A DNA stretch of 64,000 bases from Litoditis marina (lineage: Eukaryota > Nematoda > Chromadorea > Rhabditida > Rhabditidae), in assembly GCA_964036275.1 (NCBI GenBank), contig OZ038435.1, positions 30,485,521-30,549,520 on the forward strand, written 5' to 3'. How positions within the stretch are numbered: the first letter of the stretch is position 1; each line of letters begins with the position of its first letter. This document shows positions 6,201 through 51,532 of the stretch, one piece after another. The position numbers were made by a program, and so were the translations under genes. The notes beneath the pieces were generated by a model. The model was not told where the DNA came from. It saw only the letters and a program-made list of their open reading frames with translations, and did not search any database.

Positions 6201-9200
6201 ACATGTTGATCGGAAACTGAGGTATATCTGAAAGCAGAATGCAAGATTAATATAGATTAAATTTCGTTCGCAGTGGCAAATGTCGACGGTGAACTCATCC
6301 ACACAACAGTAATACGTGACGATTGGACGAAAAGGAGTCGGTTTTTAGATTCCAATACGTAAACCTTTATGGATTCGCATCAAAAATAGATGAGTTTCAC
6401 TGATTTTGGCGAAAAAAATCCGTTTTTGCATTTTTTTCCGAATATTAGGACAACTACTGTAGTATGCACTCATCATATCCTCAATAATACTGATTCCGCG
6501 ACAACTCGTCCCCGTGCGTCGCGTGTGCGACAACTCGTCTCTCATGATGCGACAACTCGTCCCCAATGTTTTATACCAAAACTGGCTGAAAACTGGGTTT
6601 CGAAGTGAAATTATTTGTTGTAAAGTTTAATGCTTATTATAGAATACAAATTAACTACAAATATATTCAAAAAATTGGTTTATTCATCATACATTCGAGA
6701 GAAAGCACGACATTAACGAGAATTTTGATTATCATAGCAAAATATGGCCTATCTTTGTGATTTTCAATTTTTTTCCATTTCTGAACTTACAATACAGTCT
6801 CTCCCATAAAATATAACCTAGTCACTACTTTTATTTGTAAGTTTTGAGCTAATTTGAGGATATTTTGGGCTAGGGACGAGTTGTCGCTGCAGCGGGGACG
6901 AGTTGTCGCACGCAACGCGGGGACGAGTTGTCCGTAAACGATAATACTAGCTCCGCACCGTACCATGACTGATCACCAGGACCAGTAACTTGGATACACA
7001 CATCAATGAAAACTAAACCTCTCGTGATAGATAAACTTTAATGTCACCTCAAACGTCAGATTGAAATTGGAATCGTATAAAAAATGTACATTCAGCACCA
7101 AAAAACTGAAATGGGGGAACATTCTTGTTATGTTAAGATACCTTCTAGCGGGGGATTCACTCGCGTCTTTGGATCGACCGAACAGATACGTATTGGGCCT
7201 GAACAGTGAAGAAATTAAAACATAAGAATTTGAAACTGGAGTGAAACCCAAAATTGAAAAACTCTACCGGGCAATTTTGAGCAGCTACATAAAGTTAGTT
7301 AGTGTTAGACGTACAACACAAGCAACTGAAAACTCACCCGAATGAATGTGATCCAGAAATCTGAACATGGCTGTTCAAACTTTTAGGATCATTTTGCTTC
7401 GTCTGCCCATTTTCCACAGATCCATAAACTTTTTCTGGTCTCCTGAATTATACGATGTCATACCGGTTTCAACAATGTTCCAGAACTGTTGTCCAATCGT
7501 GTTACTAGAGCCGTGGTTTTCAGACAGAAATTCTATCTTCAAAAAAATTGATTAAAAATTGTGCATGCACTATGCTTATATAATAACAGACAATCACCAT
7601 CAGAATACATGAGCTTGTACTCACAGAGAAGATGCAGGTTTCTGGTTGCAGTTTGTAGCATTGTTCTTGTACATAGAAGACTTGGTGGCTTCCGCATAAC
7701 TAGGCAGCTTTGGATATTGTACACCAGTCAATATATCATCACTTGCTCTGCAATGTGAATATTGAACATGTTCGTGATAAAAACAACAGCTCAACAGCTG
7801 GAAATTCTGACTCGATCTGTATCACGATACCACTGTCTCCTGAGAAATTGTAATTAAATAAGCAAAACTAGGTTAAAAGAAATCAAGTTAACTAGGATGA
7901 AGTTAATAAATAAATGATTAAATGAATTAAAAGTAATAAATACTATCTATGAAGTTAATATTGACTAAGTTTAAAATAAAATACATCGTTTCGGCCTCAC
8001 CACCTTTACGATGTCTTAGGGTCAGTGGTCGAGGCCTCATCAGAAGATAAGCCACTGACCCAGTACAAAGAAATTCAATTAGTAAAACATTACTTAAATA
8101 CTAGATCAACTAATTTTTTACATGTTACAATAAAACTATTTCTGTTTTAAATAAACTACTTTAACTCTTATTCTTAAATCCTACTTCTAGCCATCCTAAT
8201 GTGCTAATATTATAAAGAAAAAGAGAAGAAGTGTGATTGTGTTCTGTTTCGTCTGCCTTATTAAGTGCCGCTGTCACCTTTTCCCGCGCAAAGTGTATGT
8301 AGTTTGATCTATTAGAAGGATATCGTAGTCACCGATAGTTCCAAAAATTGTCAAAAATGTGCAATAGAATATAGTAGTTCGTAATTATGTCATGAAATAA
8401 TTATTTGTGATTCATAATAATGGACTTTTTATGATTTATAAAAGTATATATTTCTTTTTTAGGGTATTTATTAAGTATGTGGGTGTTACTTTGTAATACT
8501 CTTATACATCTATTATAGATAACTTGTGTAGGAAACTTGTTGAATTCAAAATCTTTAATGATGGCTTCTACTCTTTCGAGAAAATAGTTAACTTCACTGC
8601 AACATCTACTAAATCTAATAATTTCACCTTTAATGGTATTCAACCCGATACTTGTAGGAATGTTAGAGGTGAAGTGAGGATATCTTCTGATTTTGAAGTT
8701 GTAGTCGTCAGTCTTGTTATATAGCTTGCTTACTATACTGTTGCTTTCTCTATTTATCATTAATGTTAGATCTAAGAAATTGGATTCATCATTTGTAATA
8801 TTTGTTTGTTCAATTTTCAGAGCTTTATCATAGATTTTACTAAAAGTCTCTTTCAAGTTATACTGTTCATTTGGTTTATAAATCTGCAGTAAATCATCCA
8901 TATAGCGGTATGTCCTGGTTTTGTGAATATTGAATAGATTTTGATGACTCATCACAAACTTATATTCCATAGAGCACAGTGTCAGATCAGCTATGAGAGG
9001 GGAGGCGTTGTTACCTTGAGGGATTCCAGCTATTTGTTTATATATTTGGTTACCATAATTAGCAAAGCTGTTGTTGAGAATATATTTCAATAAGTTTATT
9101 ACATTATCTCTAGAATAGCTTCTAGCTTGTTTCAAATTGGACATGTCTCTACTATAGTAGGTTTTATTGTTATTTACAATAATGTAAGTGCCAGCTGATC

Positions 9201-12200
9201 CTGCATTCTTATAGCACAAGGAAACTATGTCTGACAACTCTCTTATTACAATATCATGAGGTAGACTAGTGAATAAACTTGTAAAATCAGCTGTGAACAA
9301 GTTATCGTTGTTTACTTTGAGATCTCGTAAATCTTGAATTATTTTTAAACTGCTATCTACAGACCAAAATAGTTTAATGTTATTTCGTGTTTCGATAACG
9401 CTGCAATATCGTTGGAAATGATTTCGAATATGTTTCAAGATTTTTTGTAGTTGAATTGACAAGTCTCTGAGACTGCTTGTCTTGGCTCCAGTTATGAATC
9501 TGCATTTTATGGGATACTTGTGTAATTTCGGAATTCCATATATGTGTGGTATGCTCAAGGTTGTAGTGTAGTTTAATCTCCAGTTAGTGTTGGTAACTAT
9601 GTGTCTATTAATTATGCTGTGTTCGTTTTCATAGGAATATTTGGAAAATGTTTCATTGGTTGATGTATTGTTAAAATATCCCATTTCTTTATTAAGTATT
9701 TGAACGTATAGTTTCTTGCATGTGAATGCATAGTTTGAAGTAGCTTTATCAGTGACTGTAACAATGTAATGTTTATGAATTTCTTTCACTTGATTTTTCC
9801 AGTTCGAGTGAGTACGTTGTTCTAGTGGATATAATCTTAGTTTCTGCTAATGAATACGGAAGATCTTCAGGGAAAATAAACGTGTGAAAATAGGGATAGG
9901 TTTAACATCATATAGTTATGCCTATCATGAATATGACATTCTCCAACCTCTTACTACCGAATATGTTCACGAACGTAAGTAACACCCTGAGAACAATATA
10001 GAGCCGGGTGCCATCAACAACCGCATTCCCGTAAAGAGAAAGAGGGGGTTCTCTAACGAGAATAAATGTAAATTGGGCTGAGAATTTAAATATGCGATGA
10101 TACCGTGTGTGTATGCATCAAATATACACGACAAGCACATGTTTTGTTTTACCCCGAGATTGTAGGATAAGGAATGCTAGAACATAGAATCTACCTGTGC
10201 GCTTCATTTGATAGAGACTTGGTGTCAACTATGCCATTAGACTCGTTCGATGGGTGGTGTTGATTGCCGGTAAACTGATCATCGATAAGACTCTAGAAAT
10301 ATCACTGGATAGAAAACGGTAAAGGGGGACAGCGCATTCATATGATGAAGATAGAAAAGACAATGAAGAAAAGAACCCATTCAGGTATGACTAGAAGTCT
10401 ACCAGTCAACTAAACATATTCTATAAACAAAGTAACAAAGTCAACTTACTGATCTTTTCCATTGCGAAAATCTAAATCACCGAGAAATCATCGTTCATTT
10501 CAAAATTCAATTCGGGTGAGAAAACGTTTACGGACCACTCGTCCCAGCGTTGCGTGCGACAACTCGTCCCCAGCTTAAAATTCGCTCAAATTAGCTTAAA
10601 ACTTACAAATTCAATTAGAGACTAGGTTATATTTTATACTCAAGACTGTGGATAAACTTAAAGATAGAAAACAATTGAATATAACAGAGATACATCATAC
10701 TATTCTATAATTATCACTATTTTCTAAAATGCATCGTTTCTCTCAAAAACGTGATGATTAAATCCATTTTCCGAACGTTTCTACTTACTACAGTTCATTT
10801 GTATTCAATCATAAGCAGAAAGCTTCACAAAATGTATTTTCACTTTGAAACCTAGTTTTTAGCTGGTATTGTGATAAAACATTGGGGACGAGTTGTCGCG
10901 GAATCGAAGAAAATATTCACCTTCTCATCCTTCCATTTCCGATAATATCTGTGAGCCCGAGGATTGCCACGAAATAGCTTCTCCAAACTGCGCATATCGC
11001 CAGCGCTTAGAAAGAGTTCAGCATCTGCTCGCTTTGTATCATTGAGATGAATGAGGAAAACAGCAGGATCCGGAACCACTGACTGCTACAACAACACAAT
11101 TAAACATTTTATACTTAAACAAATAAAAAAATGTGGTTTATTATTTATTAAAGATATGAACATCTTCATCATTAAGATTGAACTGATAATCCATCAACAA
11201 GTATTTATTTATTAAAAATATGAACATCTTCATCATTGGGCTGAATGAAAATCCCTCAACAAATCAATAATAAAAGTTTATATTGGCTTATAATTGAATA
11301 CATTAGATACTTGTACAATTGTATTCAGTCGGATTGCAGTAAGCTGAATATCACCTGATATTGGTTCTTCTAAAGAACTCCTTCACAGCGAAATGGGCAA
11401 ATGACAAATTTCCCCGGGATAAGTGGAAGTGCGCTCGTGTTTCAAATTGTTGTGTTCATTCGGGTTTCCGGACACAACAAAAAATCACTTACTGTGAGTA
11501 CTGGGTTGTTGCCTTTCTGCGAATAACCATTTAGCGTATCGTCCGACTTCGTAGAGCTTTGCTTGCCTCGCTGGTCACTTGTCTTCGTGTCATCACTTAC
11601 TACTTCGGTATTCGTCACAGCCTGAAAACATCTCAACACTTGATCAAGACAAGTGGAAGGCTATAACCTTACACTTGTCTTGGTGGGGGTTGTATAACTC
11701 AGCTAACCCGCGAACCGACACTATCCCAATAGAGAAAAAACGAATTGAAGCGTCGGCTGGATATTTTGTTTCGGAGACAGATCGGTGGCGCGGGGTTATT
11801 CAAAGGAGGCTTCAAGGAAAACAACCATGCAGTTAAGATGAACCCATGAACTACAAATCGCCTAGCTACATTGCTTTCGCTATTAGAACTGATAAAAAAC
11901 TGTGATAATAGCCCGTGTACGAAAAATATTTCATCCATATTACGACGGCGCGTGTAGTTCTCACGTGCTTTTTTGCCAACATGTAAAATCCTTGGAAATG
12001 TTTGTGTTTTCTCTCTGATTGAGTTCTTTTTTCGTCCCAACAATCCTTCATAGTCTAATGAACCTGCAAAGGGAAATGGGTACACTTTAAACTACTTCAC
12101 GACAAGAAGTGAAGTTGTGAAGTAGCTGAATAACCTTGAAATATTCGATATACAATAGGGTTGTTAGAATTGGAATTGGAATTGATAGAATTGAGATAAT

Positions 12201-40886: not shown

Positions 40887-42791
40887 CAATTCATGAAAAA
40901 GTGGGGGCCCAACGAATGTAAGATTTGTCTTCTGCTGTGCGCCCCTTAGACAACTACTCTCAAATGGAACAGCTACTGCTACAAAAACCGAAAAATACTA
41001 ATATACTCAAGTATAACTGTTCATTACAAACATACAGAAGTCGTAAAATATTTTCTCAAACCTGTAAACTAGAATCTACAAGTCACAGCTGCGAAAGAGA
41101 GAACAACTGTTGAATAATATGACAAACGTTATAGCACCTAGAATTGAAGTAATGACAAAAAATGCCAACCATTGTGCACAAAACCAGGAACTCTATAATT
41201 GAGTACGTTGAGTTAACATCTGTGATTTGTAGATTCTAGTTTACAGGTTTGAGAAAATATTTTACGACTTTTGTATGTTTGTAATGAACAGTTATACTTG
41301 AGTATATTAGTATTTTTCGGTTTTTGTAGCAGTAGCTGTTCCATTTGAGAGTAGTTGTCTAAGGGGCGCACAGCAGAAGACAAATCTTACATTCGTTGGG
41401 CCCCCACTTTTTCATGAATTTTTCTATTTTTGTATACATGCCGTAGGTATGTGGTTTGATCTGTACGGTGCAGATAAAATTGTTTCCTTAATCAACCACT
41501 TGTCAAGTACTACCATCATTCGGAAAAAATATGACGTCAACATTGCAGTTCTAGAAACTTAGTTCATCTGCCCTTCAGAATCCCAGAATACGTCATGTTT
41601 GAATGAACTTTCATCGTGAATTGACCATTTTTAAGAAACTTCCAGCATTCGAAAACATATTTCACGTCAATTTTTTCAAAAGTTGACGTCATCTGGCCTT
41701 CTGAATTCCAGAATAAGTCATATTTAGATAAAGTTTTATCGTTAATATACCATTTTTAAGATATTTTCAGCAGTTGAAAATATATGTGACGTCAACTTTG
41801 CACTTTTCAAAAATGACGTCATCTGGTCTCCAGAATCCCAGAATACGTCACTCTTAGATTGAGTTTCACCGTTAATTGACCCTTTCTAAGACATTTTCAG
41901 CATTTGAAAATATATGTGACGTCAACTTTGCACTTTTCAATAATGACGTCATCTGGTCTCCAGAATCCCAGAATACGTCACTCTTAGATTGAGTTTCACC
42001 GTTAATTGACCCTTTCTAAGATATTACCATCATTTGAAAATAAATGTGACGTCAACTTTGCACTTTTCAAAAATGACGTCATCTGGTCTCCAGAATACGT
42101 CACTCTTAGATTGAGTTTAACCGTTAATTGACCCTTTCTAAGATATTACCATCATTTGAAAATAAATGTGACGTCAACTTTGCACTTTTCAAAAATGACG
42201 TCATCCGAGCTCCAGAATCCTCGATGACGTCATCAGTAGAAGACTTACATCTAAATCGATGTCAGTTCATGTGGTGGTATCATACTTCAAATTTTACTTG
42301 AATTGGTTAGGACTGAGCTGAGTTATAACGCAATTTGATTTACCCCGACAGAGAGGGCGAGAGAGTGCACGAAATGAAGAGACGCAGAGACATTTTCAAA
42401 GACCTATAACTTGATGAAAAAAAAAATTTCGAAAAAAAGTTTGCGCCCCCAAGGTTTGAGTGGGATATCTATCGTGTCCCAAATTTTCAGTCAAATCGGT
42501 TCACACATAAAAATTTCCCAGGAGTGCGCACCAACACAGACGGAAGGACGGAAGGAAACACGGCGGAAGTTGGCGGTCTGCATGAAGCGCATAACGTCAT
42601 AACTCGGCTCAAACTCAATCAATTTTGTTCAAATTTCGAACATAACTCGTAAATGTGCCATAGAAAATCAGCAAATCATAAAAAGTTCTGATTTGCACAA
42701 TTGGACCTTTTTGAGAGTGAACTAAAAAAATGAAAGCGCGCATTAGCCGGACCAAAGACAAATCTCGCACAGCGCTTCGCGCTGCGCGCGA
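40887..42791. mobile_element. Foldback-plus-satellite element, copy 1
   Basis: It begins with a 530-bp foldback (40889-41420; arms AATTCATGAAAAAGTGGGGG and inverse). Next come about six satellite units (41470-42230) of roughly 110-130 bp, each with ATGACGTCAT-type palindromes. A 550-bp unique part then ends in a GC-rich hairpin (CGCAGCGCTTCGCGCTGCGCG-like). It is nearly identical to 48841-50751. No ORF-based transposase was seen; the unique right-end hairpin recalls Helitron ends, but no CTRR terminus is present. Confidence 0.75.
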
Positions 42792-46900: not shown

Positions 46901-49900
46901 GCTTCAATTTGTCATTGTTTCTTTTCAATGCTATATTTCTTTCATTGTTGTCTAAAATTTATATTAAAGATTTGACGAACCTTAAAGGCGATATTCGATC
47001 AACCTCTACAGTTGCTCCCATATGATTCGAACTGTGGACACCTGATGTTGTCGCTGAAAATATTTAAGAGGTTTTGTGGGGAACCGGAAGAGTGATCTGC
47101 CAAAATTGAGAAAAACGAAAAGAAAGCAAAGCATTGAGAAAACTCCTTGAACATGGAAAAATTACCGAATACTGAATACATCAGTGTCAGTAAAGCGGCG
47201 ACCAGTATGTGCCTTTCAAGCAAACGTGATCGTGAACGAAAGATTGTAAAGACTAGAACCGTATCTGGTTGGAAGGAGTTTTCTGAAGTGATAACTTCCC
47301 CTCCTTGATATTTTTGTCAAACCCTATGGGCTCAAGCTACACGGAGCACGGTGCTTTCCAAAAAGATTCAAAGTCCTCACCTTTGTCGTCACAACTTCTC
47401 TTTACATATGTTGTGGACACATCAAACTTTTGATGATCATCGGCGAATTCAAATTCAGTTGGTATGGAGGAGGAACTTGCTGATTTAGAACTATCGATAT
47501 CAACAGATTTCACAAAGGTAGTTGGGTCCCTGTAACAAATAACAACTCAAAATATAAAAAAAATTCAATTGGGACTCGAAGTAAACCTTGGCTGCTAGCA
47601 AGAAGTTCCAAAATCGGATTCGGAAAATGCGTATTAATAATAGTAGCTTTATCTACTGAAAGGAATGACACCTTACGCGTATTAAGACAGACGTGCACAT
47701 AAGATATCAGTTCCGACATATTCACGGACAGTGCACAAACGATAAGTAAAGACCACATAAATGTAAATTTCGTCTTGTAACTTTTTCGCGAACAAAAATT
47801 TTTAATTTGGGAATTTTAGAAATTTATGCAGTTTGCAGTCTATCTCTTTTTTTTTTCAAAAAAAAAAACGGTGTAGTGAAATTTTTCAATGTTGCAAATC
47901 TTAAATTTAAACTATATTTCAAAATCAACTACCATATTTCGGCCGGAGTTCCATCCATTATGGCTGAAGGAATGTGGCCAGTAACATGGGCAGTGAGATC
48001 TTTCGCAGAGAAAAAATTGAATTGAGTTCCGATCGACCTAAAACGAAATATTCAGTGTTTATCAAAGATCCACATGGTAATTTAGTTAAGAAAATTGACT
48101 TCTTCCTTGCTGGGTTTCAGTACGAGCTGTGGGAACTCTCTGGTTACGTTCGAAAATTGAACCATATTTCCGTTTGTAATGATGTAGAGCGTTATCAAGG
48201 TTCTGTCGGTAATGTAACCTATTAATCTGTTGTTAACCTTTCCGCAAAATTGTCCACAAGTCTTCCATTAGTTGACCCGTGTATCAACATTACAAGTGAC
48301 AATTGAGAAAACATGAGACAAACGTACTTTTGCCTGTCAGAACGACCCAGTCTAACGTCGGAGGGCTTTTTCAACTCCAGTACTCTATCCGAATTCCATC
48401 CAGACAGTAGATGTTCGATGTAGGCACTTCGAATCACACTCTCCTCGATTTGTTCATCCGTATCAGTTTTTACTTTGGAACTATCGAGTTGAACATCTTT
48501 CGTATCATACCGATCCACTTCATCTACATGCATATATTCATCAGAAATCTCCGACTCCAGCTTAATATCTCCAGTTGAATAAGATAAAATGCTCATTGGG
48601 TTCGGTGCATGAGATGGCGATGAGTTCACCTCCTGCAATAATTCAACTGTTTTATTTTCTGTCCATTTGGGTACGGAACCACGAGAAAATATGTTAGTTA
48701 AAAGATAGAACAAGAAGAAGTGGTACCATGAAAGACGAGTACTCGTCACGGACATGGTAACTATTAGACATAACAGTTCCAATCAGCTAAGTGATGGACA
48801 ATATTTGCACCGTTTCGTTTCACTTTCAAATACAATAATAAATTCATGAAAAAGTGGGGGCCCAACGAATGTAAGATTTGTCTTCTGCTGTGCGCCCCTT
48901 AGACAACTACTCTCAAATGGAACAGCTACTGCTACAAAAACCGAAAAATACTAATATACTCAAGTATAACTGTTCTATACAAACATACAAAAGTCGTAAA
49001 ATATTTTCTCAAACCTGTAAACTAGAATCTACAAGTCACAGCTGCGAAAGAGAGAACAACTGTTGAATAATATGACAAACGTTATAGCACCTAGAATTGA
49101 AGTAATGACAAAAAATGCCAACCATTGTGCACAAAACCAGGAACTCTATAATTGAGTACGTTGAGTTAACATCTGTGATTTGTAGATTCTAGTTTACAGG
49201 TTTGAGAAAATATTTTACGACTTTTGTATGTTTGTATAGAACAGTTATACTTGAGTATATTAGTATTTTTCGGTTTTTGTAGCAGTAGCTGTTCCATTTG
49301 AGAGTAGTTGTCTAAGGGGCGCACAGCAGAAGACAAATCTTACATTCGTTGGGCCCCCACTTTTTCATGAATTTTTCTCTTTTTGTATACATGCCGTAGG
49401 TATGTGGTTTGATCTGTACGGTGCAGATAAAATTGTTTCCTTAATCAACCACTTGTCAAGTATTACCATCATTCGGAAAAAAATATGACGTCAACATTGC
49501 AGTTCTAGAAACTTAGTTCATCTGCCCTTCAGAATCCCAGAATACGTCATGTTTGAATGAACTTTCATCGTGAATTGACCATTTTTAAGAAACTTCCAGC
49601 ATTCGAAAACATATTTCACGTCAGTTTTTTCAAAAGTTGACGTCATCTGGCCTTCTGAATTCCAGAATAAGTCATATTTAGATAAAGTTTTATCGTTAAT
49701 ATACCATTTTTAAGATATTTTCAGCAGTTGAAAATATATGTGACGTCAACTTTGCACTTTTCAAAAATGACGTCATCTGGTCTCCAGAATCCCAGAATAC
49801 GTCACTCTTAGATTGATTTTCACCGTTAATTGACCCTTTCTAAGATATTTTCAGCATTTGAAAATATATGTGACGTCAACTTTGCACTTTTCCAAAATGA

Positions 49901-51532
49901 CGTCATCTGGTCTCCAGAATCCCAGAATACGTCACTCTTAGATTGAGTTTCACCGTTAATTGACCCTTTCTGAGACATTTTCAGAATTTGAAAATATATG
50001 TGACGTCAACTTTGCACTTTTAAATAATGACGTCATCTGGTCTCCAGAATCCCAGAATACGTCACTCTTAGATTGAGTTTCACCGTTAATTGACCCTTTC
50101 TAAGATATTACCATCATTTGAAAATAAATGTGACGTCAACTTTGCACTTTTCAAAAATGACGTCGTCCGAGCTCCAGAATCCTCGATGACGTCATCAGTA
50201 GAAGACTTACATCTAAATCGATGTCAGTTCATGTGGTGGTATCATACTTCAAATTTTACTTGAATTGGTTAGGACTGAGCTGAGTTATAACGCAATTTGA
50301 TTTACCCCGACAGAGAGGGCGAGAGAGTGCACGAAATGAAGAGACGCAGAGACATTTTCAAAGACCTATAACTTGATGAAAAAAAAATTTTTTCGAAAAA
50401 AAGTTTGCGCCCCCAAGGTTTGAGTGGGATATCTATCGTGTCCCAAATTTTCAGTCAAATCGGTTCACACATACAAATTTCCCAGGAGTGCGCACCTACA
50501 CAGACACACACACACACACACGACGGAAGTTGGCGCTCTTGATGAAGCGAAAACGTCATAACTTTGCTCAAACTTGACCGATTTCGTTCAAATTTCGAAC
50601 ATAGCCTGTAAATGTGCCATAGAAAATCAGCAAATCATAAAAAGTTCTGATTTGCACAATTGGACCTTTTTGAGAGTGAACTAAAAAAATGAAAGCGCGC
50701 ATTAGCCGGACCAAAGACAAATCTCGCACAGCGCTTCGCGCTGCGCGCGATATTCAGTGTAAAGCACTCCAATTGAAAAGTTATGTATACTTGTCTATTG
50801 TCACAAGCAAACTCACTCCGTCACTGATCATGCCGCTATCAACATCAGTATCGTTGTTGGAACAGCCAGGCAAAGAGGGCGACGGAACCGGTGAAAAAGA
50901 CATTGGATGTTCAAAGAATTCTGAAAGGAATGACACACTTGAAAGTCGAAGGTCAGATCTCAGATAGTCCAATTCTCTCCTATGTTCAGTCACACGGTAT
51001 GAATTCAAACTTCCTCTCCGTGTTTTTAACACGTGCATATTTTTCAAAAACGCGAAGCGTTCGAAGAGTTGCTAAAAGTCATTTTGGTTTTTGATTAGAA
51101 AAGTGTAATGAGACAGTTTGGTTGCATACCGTGGGAGTCCATGTACGACTGATAAGAACTATGATTTCTCCACTCGTTCTTAATATATTATGCGTGGTGT
51201 ATGCGACGTTTTATGTACTTTATATTGTCAATTAAGCTCATTAAACTGATGTGAACACCATACAATCAACTTTGCAGATGCGTATCTTTGATCTACATAC
51301 TCTGCTGGAAACAATCATGGACCGCTCGCCTCGCATCGCGTAAACGACTCGATCGTTGTAATTTTTGCTGAGAAAAACTATAGATGTTCTACAGAATCAG
51401 ATGTGTGTATATTTGTAACTAACCAGTGGAATCTTCTACAATTATGGCGTCCTGTTGTTCGCGTTCAGGCGGCACGGGTAAAGCCTCGCGCCGGACGAAC
51501 GGAAGTTTTGGAGGAGGTCGACTAAACATCAT
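43640..51532 (-). CDS. Gene C: probable nuclear protein with SUMO-interaction-like motifs, family not recognised
   Basis: Exons, high to low: 51532-51424, 50920-50817, 48632-48328, 47529-47381, 47096-47004, 46951-46846, 46765-46685, 46632-46564, 46448-46313, 45855-45628, 45187-45024, 44826-44707, 44371-44319, 43890-43866 (25-nt microexon), 43847-43640 (TAG). They sum to 1950 nt, exactly 650 codons including stop, and every phase joins. The start MMFSRPPPKL lies just after a TTTCAG acceptor. Three hydrophobic-acidic patches look like SUMO-interaction motifs: AIIVEDS (residue about 28), VVIIEDS in exon 7 and VIQIDDDDDE in exon 12. A strongly basic helical segment (exon 10, QQRIRRAAARGR to LLEEERIGRLKRMG) could bind nucleic acid or form a coiled coil. 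Pro/Ser-rich ends look disordered. I do not recognise the family; the nuclear role is inference. Confidence 0.7.
43926..44000. repeat. GA microsatellite in gene C intron
   Basis: (GA)n with GGGA variants. Confidence 0.95.
48841..50751. mobile_element. Foldback-plus-satellite element, copy 2
   Basis: Same architecture and nearly the same sequence as 40887-42791: foldback 48843-49375, about six satellite units (49425-50180), then the unique part with a CA microsatellite at about 50500-50520 where copy 1 has GGAAGGACGG repeats. It lies in the second intron of gene C. Confidence 0.75.

Follow-up and report, generated by a model that had tools for sequence, protein, structure and literature searches.

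Canonical hammerhead ribozymes of Penelope-like elements (PLEs) were reportedly described by Cervera and De la Pena in 2014, and the small hammerheads of these elements are said, in the title of a 2017 paper by Lunse et al., to cleave as dimers. Within this group, Naiad elements are defined by an N-terminal GIY-YIG and a CxC linker motif ahead of the reverse transcriptase (RT), a definition that also covers their place in the RT tree and an insertion-in-fingers domain. Craig et al. (2021) are said to have described Naiad PLEs with an N-terminal GIY-YIG, a CxC motif, an RT and tandem copies, and their abstract reportedly states that these elements lack canonical hammerhead motifs. For PAc, a canonical PLE hammerhead, the portions of PMC11167929 drawn on here report that mutants left insertion in vitro unchanged, that cleavage needed the protein, that the cut coincided with neither the start nor the end of any RNA-seq read, and that the PLE RT initiates within structured element RNA.

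Eckert et al. 2023 (PMC10085705) treated the hammerhead as three blocks, C, S and G, and described non-circular orders of these. According to the sections of that article used here, type CSG consists of two similar sequences (CSG-1 and CSG-2) from metagenomic DNA only, for which these sections name no host or element. In vitro cleavage rates of the type-CSG RNAs are 0.004 and ~0.03 per min; as 77–78 nt RNAs they cleave during transcription, with cis and dimer cleavage not separated there. The authors rated the evidence for the biological relevance of the type as weaker, few covariation events being known. A literature search outside subscription journals and preprints found no subsequent work on type CSG or on Naiad hammerheads.

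We analysed a stretch of 64,000 nucleotides from Litoditis marina (hereafter the window). On its minus strand, a Naiad-type Penelope-like retrotransposon carries what is very probably a hammerhead ribozyme of type CSG, i.e. one with non-circularly permuted blocks. Three things carry most of the case: the window motif, 13 flanks of related RTs, and covariation. The topology is not new; new are its home in an element and its breadth over families. A preliminary description of the locus had considered a new hammerhead topology, a reading we rejected since type CSG has been in print since 2023 (PMC10085705, in the part of the article consulted). Along 8061–7983 (minus strand) the blocks run in the order C-S-G, with CUGAUGA, GAAA, a GUA/A site, three flush helices and a 10-bp bridging helix. 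With a slash at the predicted cut, the minus-strand reading is GGGTCAGTGG-C-TTATCTT-CTGATGA-GGCCTC-GA-CCACTGACCC-TAAG-ACATCG-T-A/AAGGTGG-T-GAGGCC-GAA-A-CGATGT, and its parts are as follows.

7983–8061, minus strand: whole probable type-CSG hammerhead, from sequence; sole match of the six-order parser in the window
8052–8061, minus strand: bridging helix P1, 5' arm GGGTCAGTGG; pairs with 8019–8028 through 10 Watson-Crick pairs
8044–8050, minus strand: stem I, 2.x strand TTATCTT; pairs with 8000–8006; covaries
8037–8043, minus strand: block C core CTGATGA, from sequence
8031–8036, minus strand: stem II, 5' strand GGCCTC; pairs with 7993–7998; covaries between families and is nearly constant within subfamilies A–C
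8019–8028, minus strand: bridging helix P1, 3' arm CCACTGACCC, from sequence and a helix search at the expected place
8009–8014, minus strand: stem III, 16.x strand ACATCG; pairs with 7983–7988; covaries
8006–8008, minus strand: U16.1 (8008), A17 (8007) and predicted cleavage between 8007 and 8006, from position relative to the core
8000–8006, minus strand: stem I, 1.x strand AAGGTGG, from sequence and covariation
7993–7998, minus strand: stem II, 3' strand GAGGCC, from sequence and covariation
7989–7992, minus strand: block G core GAAA, with A15.1 at 7989, from sequence
7983–7988, minus strand: stem III, 15.x strand CGATGT, from sequence and covariation

The core letters, the three flush helices and the 10-bp closing stem given in the preliminary description proved correct base for base on this strand, and its predicted cut agrees in position with our reading. 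It had also proposed exchanged connections of stems I and II that leave two hairpins able to kiss, an arrangement borne out by the sequence as order C-S-G. Stem I comprises 7 bp (4 Watson-Crick and 3 G-U pairs), stem II 6 bp, extendable by 1 G-U pair, and stem III 6 bp plus U16.1-A15.1. Each core segment is set flush between two stems: I and II for CUGAUGA, II and III for GAAA, and III and I for the cleavage triplet GUA (NUH). The minimum free energy fold of the single 79-nt RNA strand predicts P1 and stem III, i.e. both hairpins, together with a local 6-bp helix that covers some of the core in loop 1; as pseudoknots, stems I and II are beyond the reach of the folding program used. The RNA folds better than its own shuffles (z −4.69). 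In the proposed mechanism, loop 1 (I2-CUGAUGA-II5', closed by P1) would kiss loop 2 (I1-II3'-GAAA inside the stem III hairpin), and the kissing loops would rebuild the usual hammerhead core and cut after GUA, between 8007 and 8006.

Compared by description with CSG-1 and CSG-2, as set out in the sections of PMC10085705 used here, the window motif has the same C-S-G order, core and bridging helix between stems I and II, and a similar size. It differs from them in its identified retrotransposon, in the ~200 genomic core matches above control, in its divergent families and in its strong covariation (PMC10085705, same sections). It also resembles type SGC as described there (PMC10085705), in which a short linker joins I1 to II3' and a helix bridges stems I and II on their remaining sides. 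Shifting SGC circularly gives CSG; the ends lie elsewhere, and the first SGC motif came from metatranscriptomes, near hairpin ribozymes, rather than from retrotransposons.

We searched for the motif with a parser that covers all six block orders and demands CUGANGA, GAAA, UH, stems of at least 4 bp flush to the core and at most 1 nt before stem II; a looser setting lowers the stem III floor to 3 bp. On both strands of the 64-kb window, the strict parser returned a single match, 7983–8061 in order CSG, and none of the circular block orders of canonical hammerhead types I–III (CGS, GSC, SCG). At gathering thresholds, Rfam 15 gave no match of any kind in the window, and the Rfam hammerhead models gave none in the window or at 7 further loci.

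A search of the same genome with the RT yielded 90 matches that are 38–100% identical (89 of 403 candidates scored). We selected 13 RT copies of 38–65% identity and took ~340–350 nt of 3' flank from each, chosen solely by its place after the RT match. The strict parser matched 9 of these 13 flanks, all in order CSG, with no match on their antisense strand, and hand reading of L129 and L136 raised the number of flanks with the motif to 11. These two fail the parser as the stem II 5' strand is displaced 37–39 nt onward, while stems I and III and P1 are present. The intervening insert of 37–39 nt, which includes a small hairpin, lies between CUGANGA (A9) and stem II, and the stems of the two copies pair with different letters; such an insert distinguishes these two families from CSG-1 and CSG-2 as described in the part of PMC10085705 consulted. 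In L134 the motif is recognisable but damaged and fails the parser, and no motif was seen in the stretch of 3' flank read for L139. The cleavage triplets among the relatives are GUA, GUC or AUA, UH being a search condition. Three relatives (L128, L135 and L141) have 1 extra nucleotide between CUGAAGA and stem II, each together with a GUC site.

At the 4-bp floor, CSG is the sole order found in the window, the 13 flanks and four contigs of prokaryote genomes (both strands; see below); with the 3-bp stem III floor, L135 also permits an SCG reading. The single motifs of a hammerhead are short, and long shuffled contigs do produce occasional matches: in 1,200 shuffles of the four contigs (300 per contig, both strands), chance matches in any order came to 11 (2 CSG) with the strict parser and to 28 (8 CSG) with the loose one; shuffles of the L140 contig alone gave 2 matches, 0 of them CSG. 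Against chance stand the strict parser's 0 matches in 6,500 shuffled flanks (500 shuffles of each of 13 flanks) and 0 in 20 dinucleotide-shuffled windows (one strand each), as well as the recurrence of the motif after divergent RTs. The shuffles and the recurrence led us to reject a chance arrangement of short motifs, whose probability we put as vanishingly small; the preliminary description had likewise held chance to be unlikely.

For covariation we assembled 15 family representatives, 13 from the parser and 2 by hand, some of which share subfamily ancestry. Left out were L133 (with the same ribozyme as L128), L134 (damaged), and L139 and L143, with no motif found. The search itself imposed CUGANGA, GAAA, UH and stems of 4 bp or more (for stem III, 3 bp at the loose setting) on the 13 parsed representatives, so the motif letters and minimum pairing there are not independent evidence. 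The parser's pairing floor likewise favours paired cases in the covariation set, a bias from which the flank counts against shuffles are free. Measured as the mean paired run from the core over the 15 representatives, stem I reaches 5.67 vs 1.51 with partner strands permuted among families, stem II 5.20 vs 2.27 and stem III 6.13 vs 2.19, and the observed pairing was reached by 0 of 10,000 permutations for each stem. Among 10 more distinct representatives, the stem II value was reached by 1 of 10,000 permutations and those of stems I and III by 0. When the first five pairs were compared with the window (70 cells per stem), double changes numbered 28 in stem I, 22 in stem II and 31 in stem III, and broken cells 3, 2 and 4, respectively. 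P1, as the best helix sought at the expected place, measures 6–14 bp in all 15 representatives, and pair 10.1-11.1 is G-C in all 15, where the search demanded pairing alone. The predicted stems I–III and P1 thus keep pairing while their letters change across families. The preliminary description had asked whether other copies break the pairs without compensation; between the 15 family representatives, pairing is kept through two-sided changes, an outcome that favours its reading of a hammerhead. Its suggestion of a rearranged relic is at odds with this covariation across divergent families and was set aside.

These data also bear on two further readings. The hammerhead-like fold could be conserved without cleaving, e.g. 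as a landing site for the element's RT. Such a reading would suit the fact that hammerhead activity is here predicted from sequence, the better folding of the 79-nt RNA than of its shuffles, and the start of the PLE RT within structured element RNA described in the part of PMC11167929 drawn on here. It fits poorly with catalytic motifs that are all in register in 9 of the 13 flanks chosen by RT position and with helix letters that change on both sides, and we consider it improbable. Equally small is the probability we give to a ribozyme that acts mainly in trans or as a dimer, with loop 1 of one transcript kissing loop 2 of another. Both halves are predicted hairpins, tandem units supply neighbouring copies, and dimer cleavage is reportedly known for small PLE hammerheads (the title of Lunse et al. 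2017). The two hairpins are nevertheless adjacent in all 15 representatives, P1 and U16.1 being 4–23 nt apart, a distance that includes the stem III strand, and published type-CSG RNAs cleave during transcription as 77–78 nt RNAs, although cis and dimer cleavage are unseparated in the sections of PMC10085705 consulted. A dimer mode, which the preliminary description had raised, is not needed to explain the window motif, and a cleaving type-CSG hammerhead remains our preferred reading.

The genome searched for further copies comprises 262 Mb in 522 contigs. Its COX1 sits on a 14.5-kb contig and has TGA within the frame; translated with the invertebrate mitochondrial code, it has relatives of up to 92–94% identity (up to 92% over the complete piece) among the 120 matches listed of 262, those with species names reaching 70% at most, in keeping with an invertebrate host. 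In a DNA search, 27 of 40 scored matches (178 candidates) were identical over 79 nt, the window copy among them. A 19-nt core pattern with up to 3 mismatches gave 247 matches vs 20 for the reversed control, an excess of some 200 within one genome; for a 31-nt 3' pattern the figures are 122 and 0. Copies sampled from the matches listed fall into three subfamilies (A–C), among which P1, stem III and stem I differ by compensatory changes and stem II hardly varies; some single copies are damaged, as expected for old insertions. To sample 5' ends, we fetched 54 of the 100 listed 3'-pattern matches (122 in total), those outside the core matches listed; removal of 3 duplicates of one insertion left 51 distinct truncated or rearranged copies, including the rearranged L085, L109, L111, L113 and L121 and a pair with near-identical flanks (L083 and L084). 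Three of the 51 begin exactly at the predicted cut and 2 more are compatible within 1–2 nt. The other 5' ends are spread over positions 24–69 at ~1.1 per position. As these truncated-copy ends form no clear peak at the cut, we dropped genomic 5' ends as in vivo proof of cutting. Separately, L085, L111 and L121 have truncation junctions inside the ribozyme with short repeated ribozyme pieces, as if the RT had slipped or restarted.

The motif resides within the following element copy.

7854–9848, minus strand: 5'-truncated Naiad-type Penelope-like element copy with 3' end ...CTTATTTAA, from comparison with other copies
8401–9846, minus strand: RT part of the element ORF, 481 aa (RVT_1, E=4.9e-07); in three other copies a 957-codon open frame spans the match

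The link to a Penelope-like element made in the preliminary description holds as an association; the placement "beside" the element does not, as the motif lies inside it, between the RT stop codon and the 3' end (7853/7854), ~130 nt before that end. The window copy is truncated at 9848, and other copies reach ~4.1–4.2 kb upstream of the ribozyme. Tandem copies giving pseudo-LTRs occur at L012, L020, L064 and L142, alongside 5'-truncated copies: L012 is arranged head to tail with two ribozymes ~4.25 kb apart, its upstream unit being a piece of ~330 nt, and L020 begins within the 3' half of a ribozyme. The 957-codon frame of L020 contains a GIY-YIG (PF01541) at residues 91–171. The L010 frame has no Pfam match at E 0.01; it aligns over the GIY-YIG region with P0025, whose GIY-YIG is recognised. 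A CxC motif precedes the RT (CIC in L010; CKC and CDC in L141 and L142) and is present in the majority line of a 20-sequence alignment. With its N-terminal GIY-YIG, CxC motif, RT and tandem copies, the element carrying the motif is, as judged by these sequence features, of Naiad type under the definition given above, and it matches what is reported of Naiad PLEs in these same features. Naiad PLEs are reportedly without canonical hammerheads, and the present elements carry a non-canonical one.

Three observations concern the surroundings of element copies. Inverted arms of 47–108 nt that are 82–96% complementary flank the window copy at 6549–6940 and 10525–10899. The window also holds two arrays, at 41532–42220 and 49486–50182, of a nearly identical 130-bp satellite unit with TGACGTCA. 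At L064, a tandem Naiad element of subfamily B occupies a gap in a tRNA gene array with a spacing of ~448 nt (10 Rfam tRNA matches).

Relatives also appear on other contigs. A scan of prokaryote genome contigs found four, from metagenome-assembled genomes (MAGs), that encode a relative; these bacterial-MAG contigs are presumably eukaryotic contamination. Two of the four, L141 and L142, match the strict parser, and L140, whose stem III is interrupted by a bulge, matches at the 3-bp stem III floor only, which brings the count to three of four; L143 gave no parser match. Each match is the single one on its contig, in order CSG and on the RT-sense strand. GIY-YIG lies N-terminal to RVT_1 in L141 and L142 (Pfam); the L140 frame has no Pfam match at E 0.01, and a similar N-terminal stretch is visible by eye. 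L142 has two copies of a short first ORF, spaced 5.27 kb apart, with the ribozyme ahead of the second. Among viral contigs, tblastn found no relative.

Like the canonical PLE hammerhead of PAc, as described in the part of PMC11167929 used here, the present motif lies in a repeated untranslated region of tandem PLEs. Those canonical PLEs combine the canonical block order with a C-terminal GIY-YIG, whereas the present elements combine a non-circular order with an N-terminal one (PMC11167929, same part). Less firmly than the structure, we propose that the ribozyme may cut tandem or read-through transcripts down to single units, as has been suggested for canonical PLE hammerheads; by analogy, such trimming of element RNA is the most likely role. 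It is an uncertain one, because PAc mutants spared insertion in vitro and no RNA-seq ends lay at the cut in the data described there (PMC11167929).

In the text of PMC10085705 used here, CSG-1 and CSG-2 are known solely from metagenomic DNA, which fits DNA elements of the Naiad kind. We lean slightly towards a broader proposal, in which the type-CSG hammerhead would be both ancestral to and standard in the entire Naiad clade, a permuted protein (endonuclease at the N-terminus) being paired with a permuted ribozyme. Such elements would be the source of the published orphan CSGs, and in one sub-branch an insert with a hairpin, between A9 and stem II, would have arisen as a further variant of the core. 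The CSG form now has a host genome, a mobile element and cross-family covariation, which makes its role testable, and it offers structural work natural sequences in which one ribozyme core is built with a different chain topology. The finding may also explain the seeming absence of hammerheads reported for Naiads, the block order being one that the Rfam models did not recognise here. A rare ribozyme form thereby gains a probable natural home, and the same permuted layout reappears, spelled in other letters, in elements that are only distant relatives.
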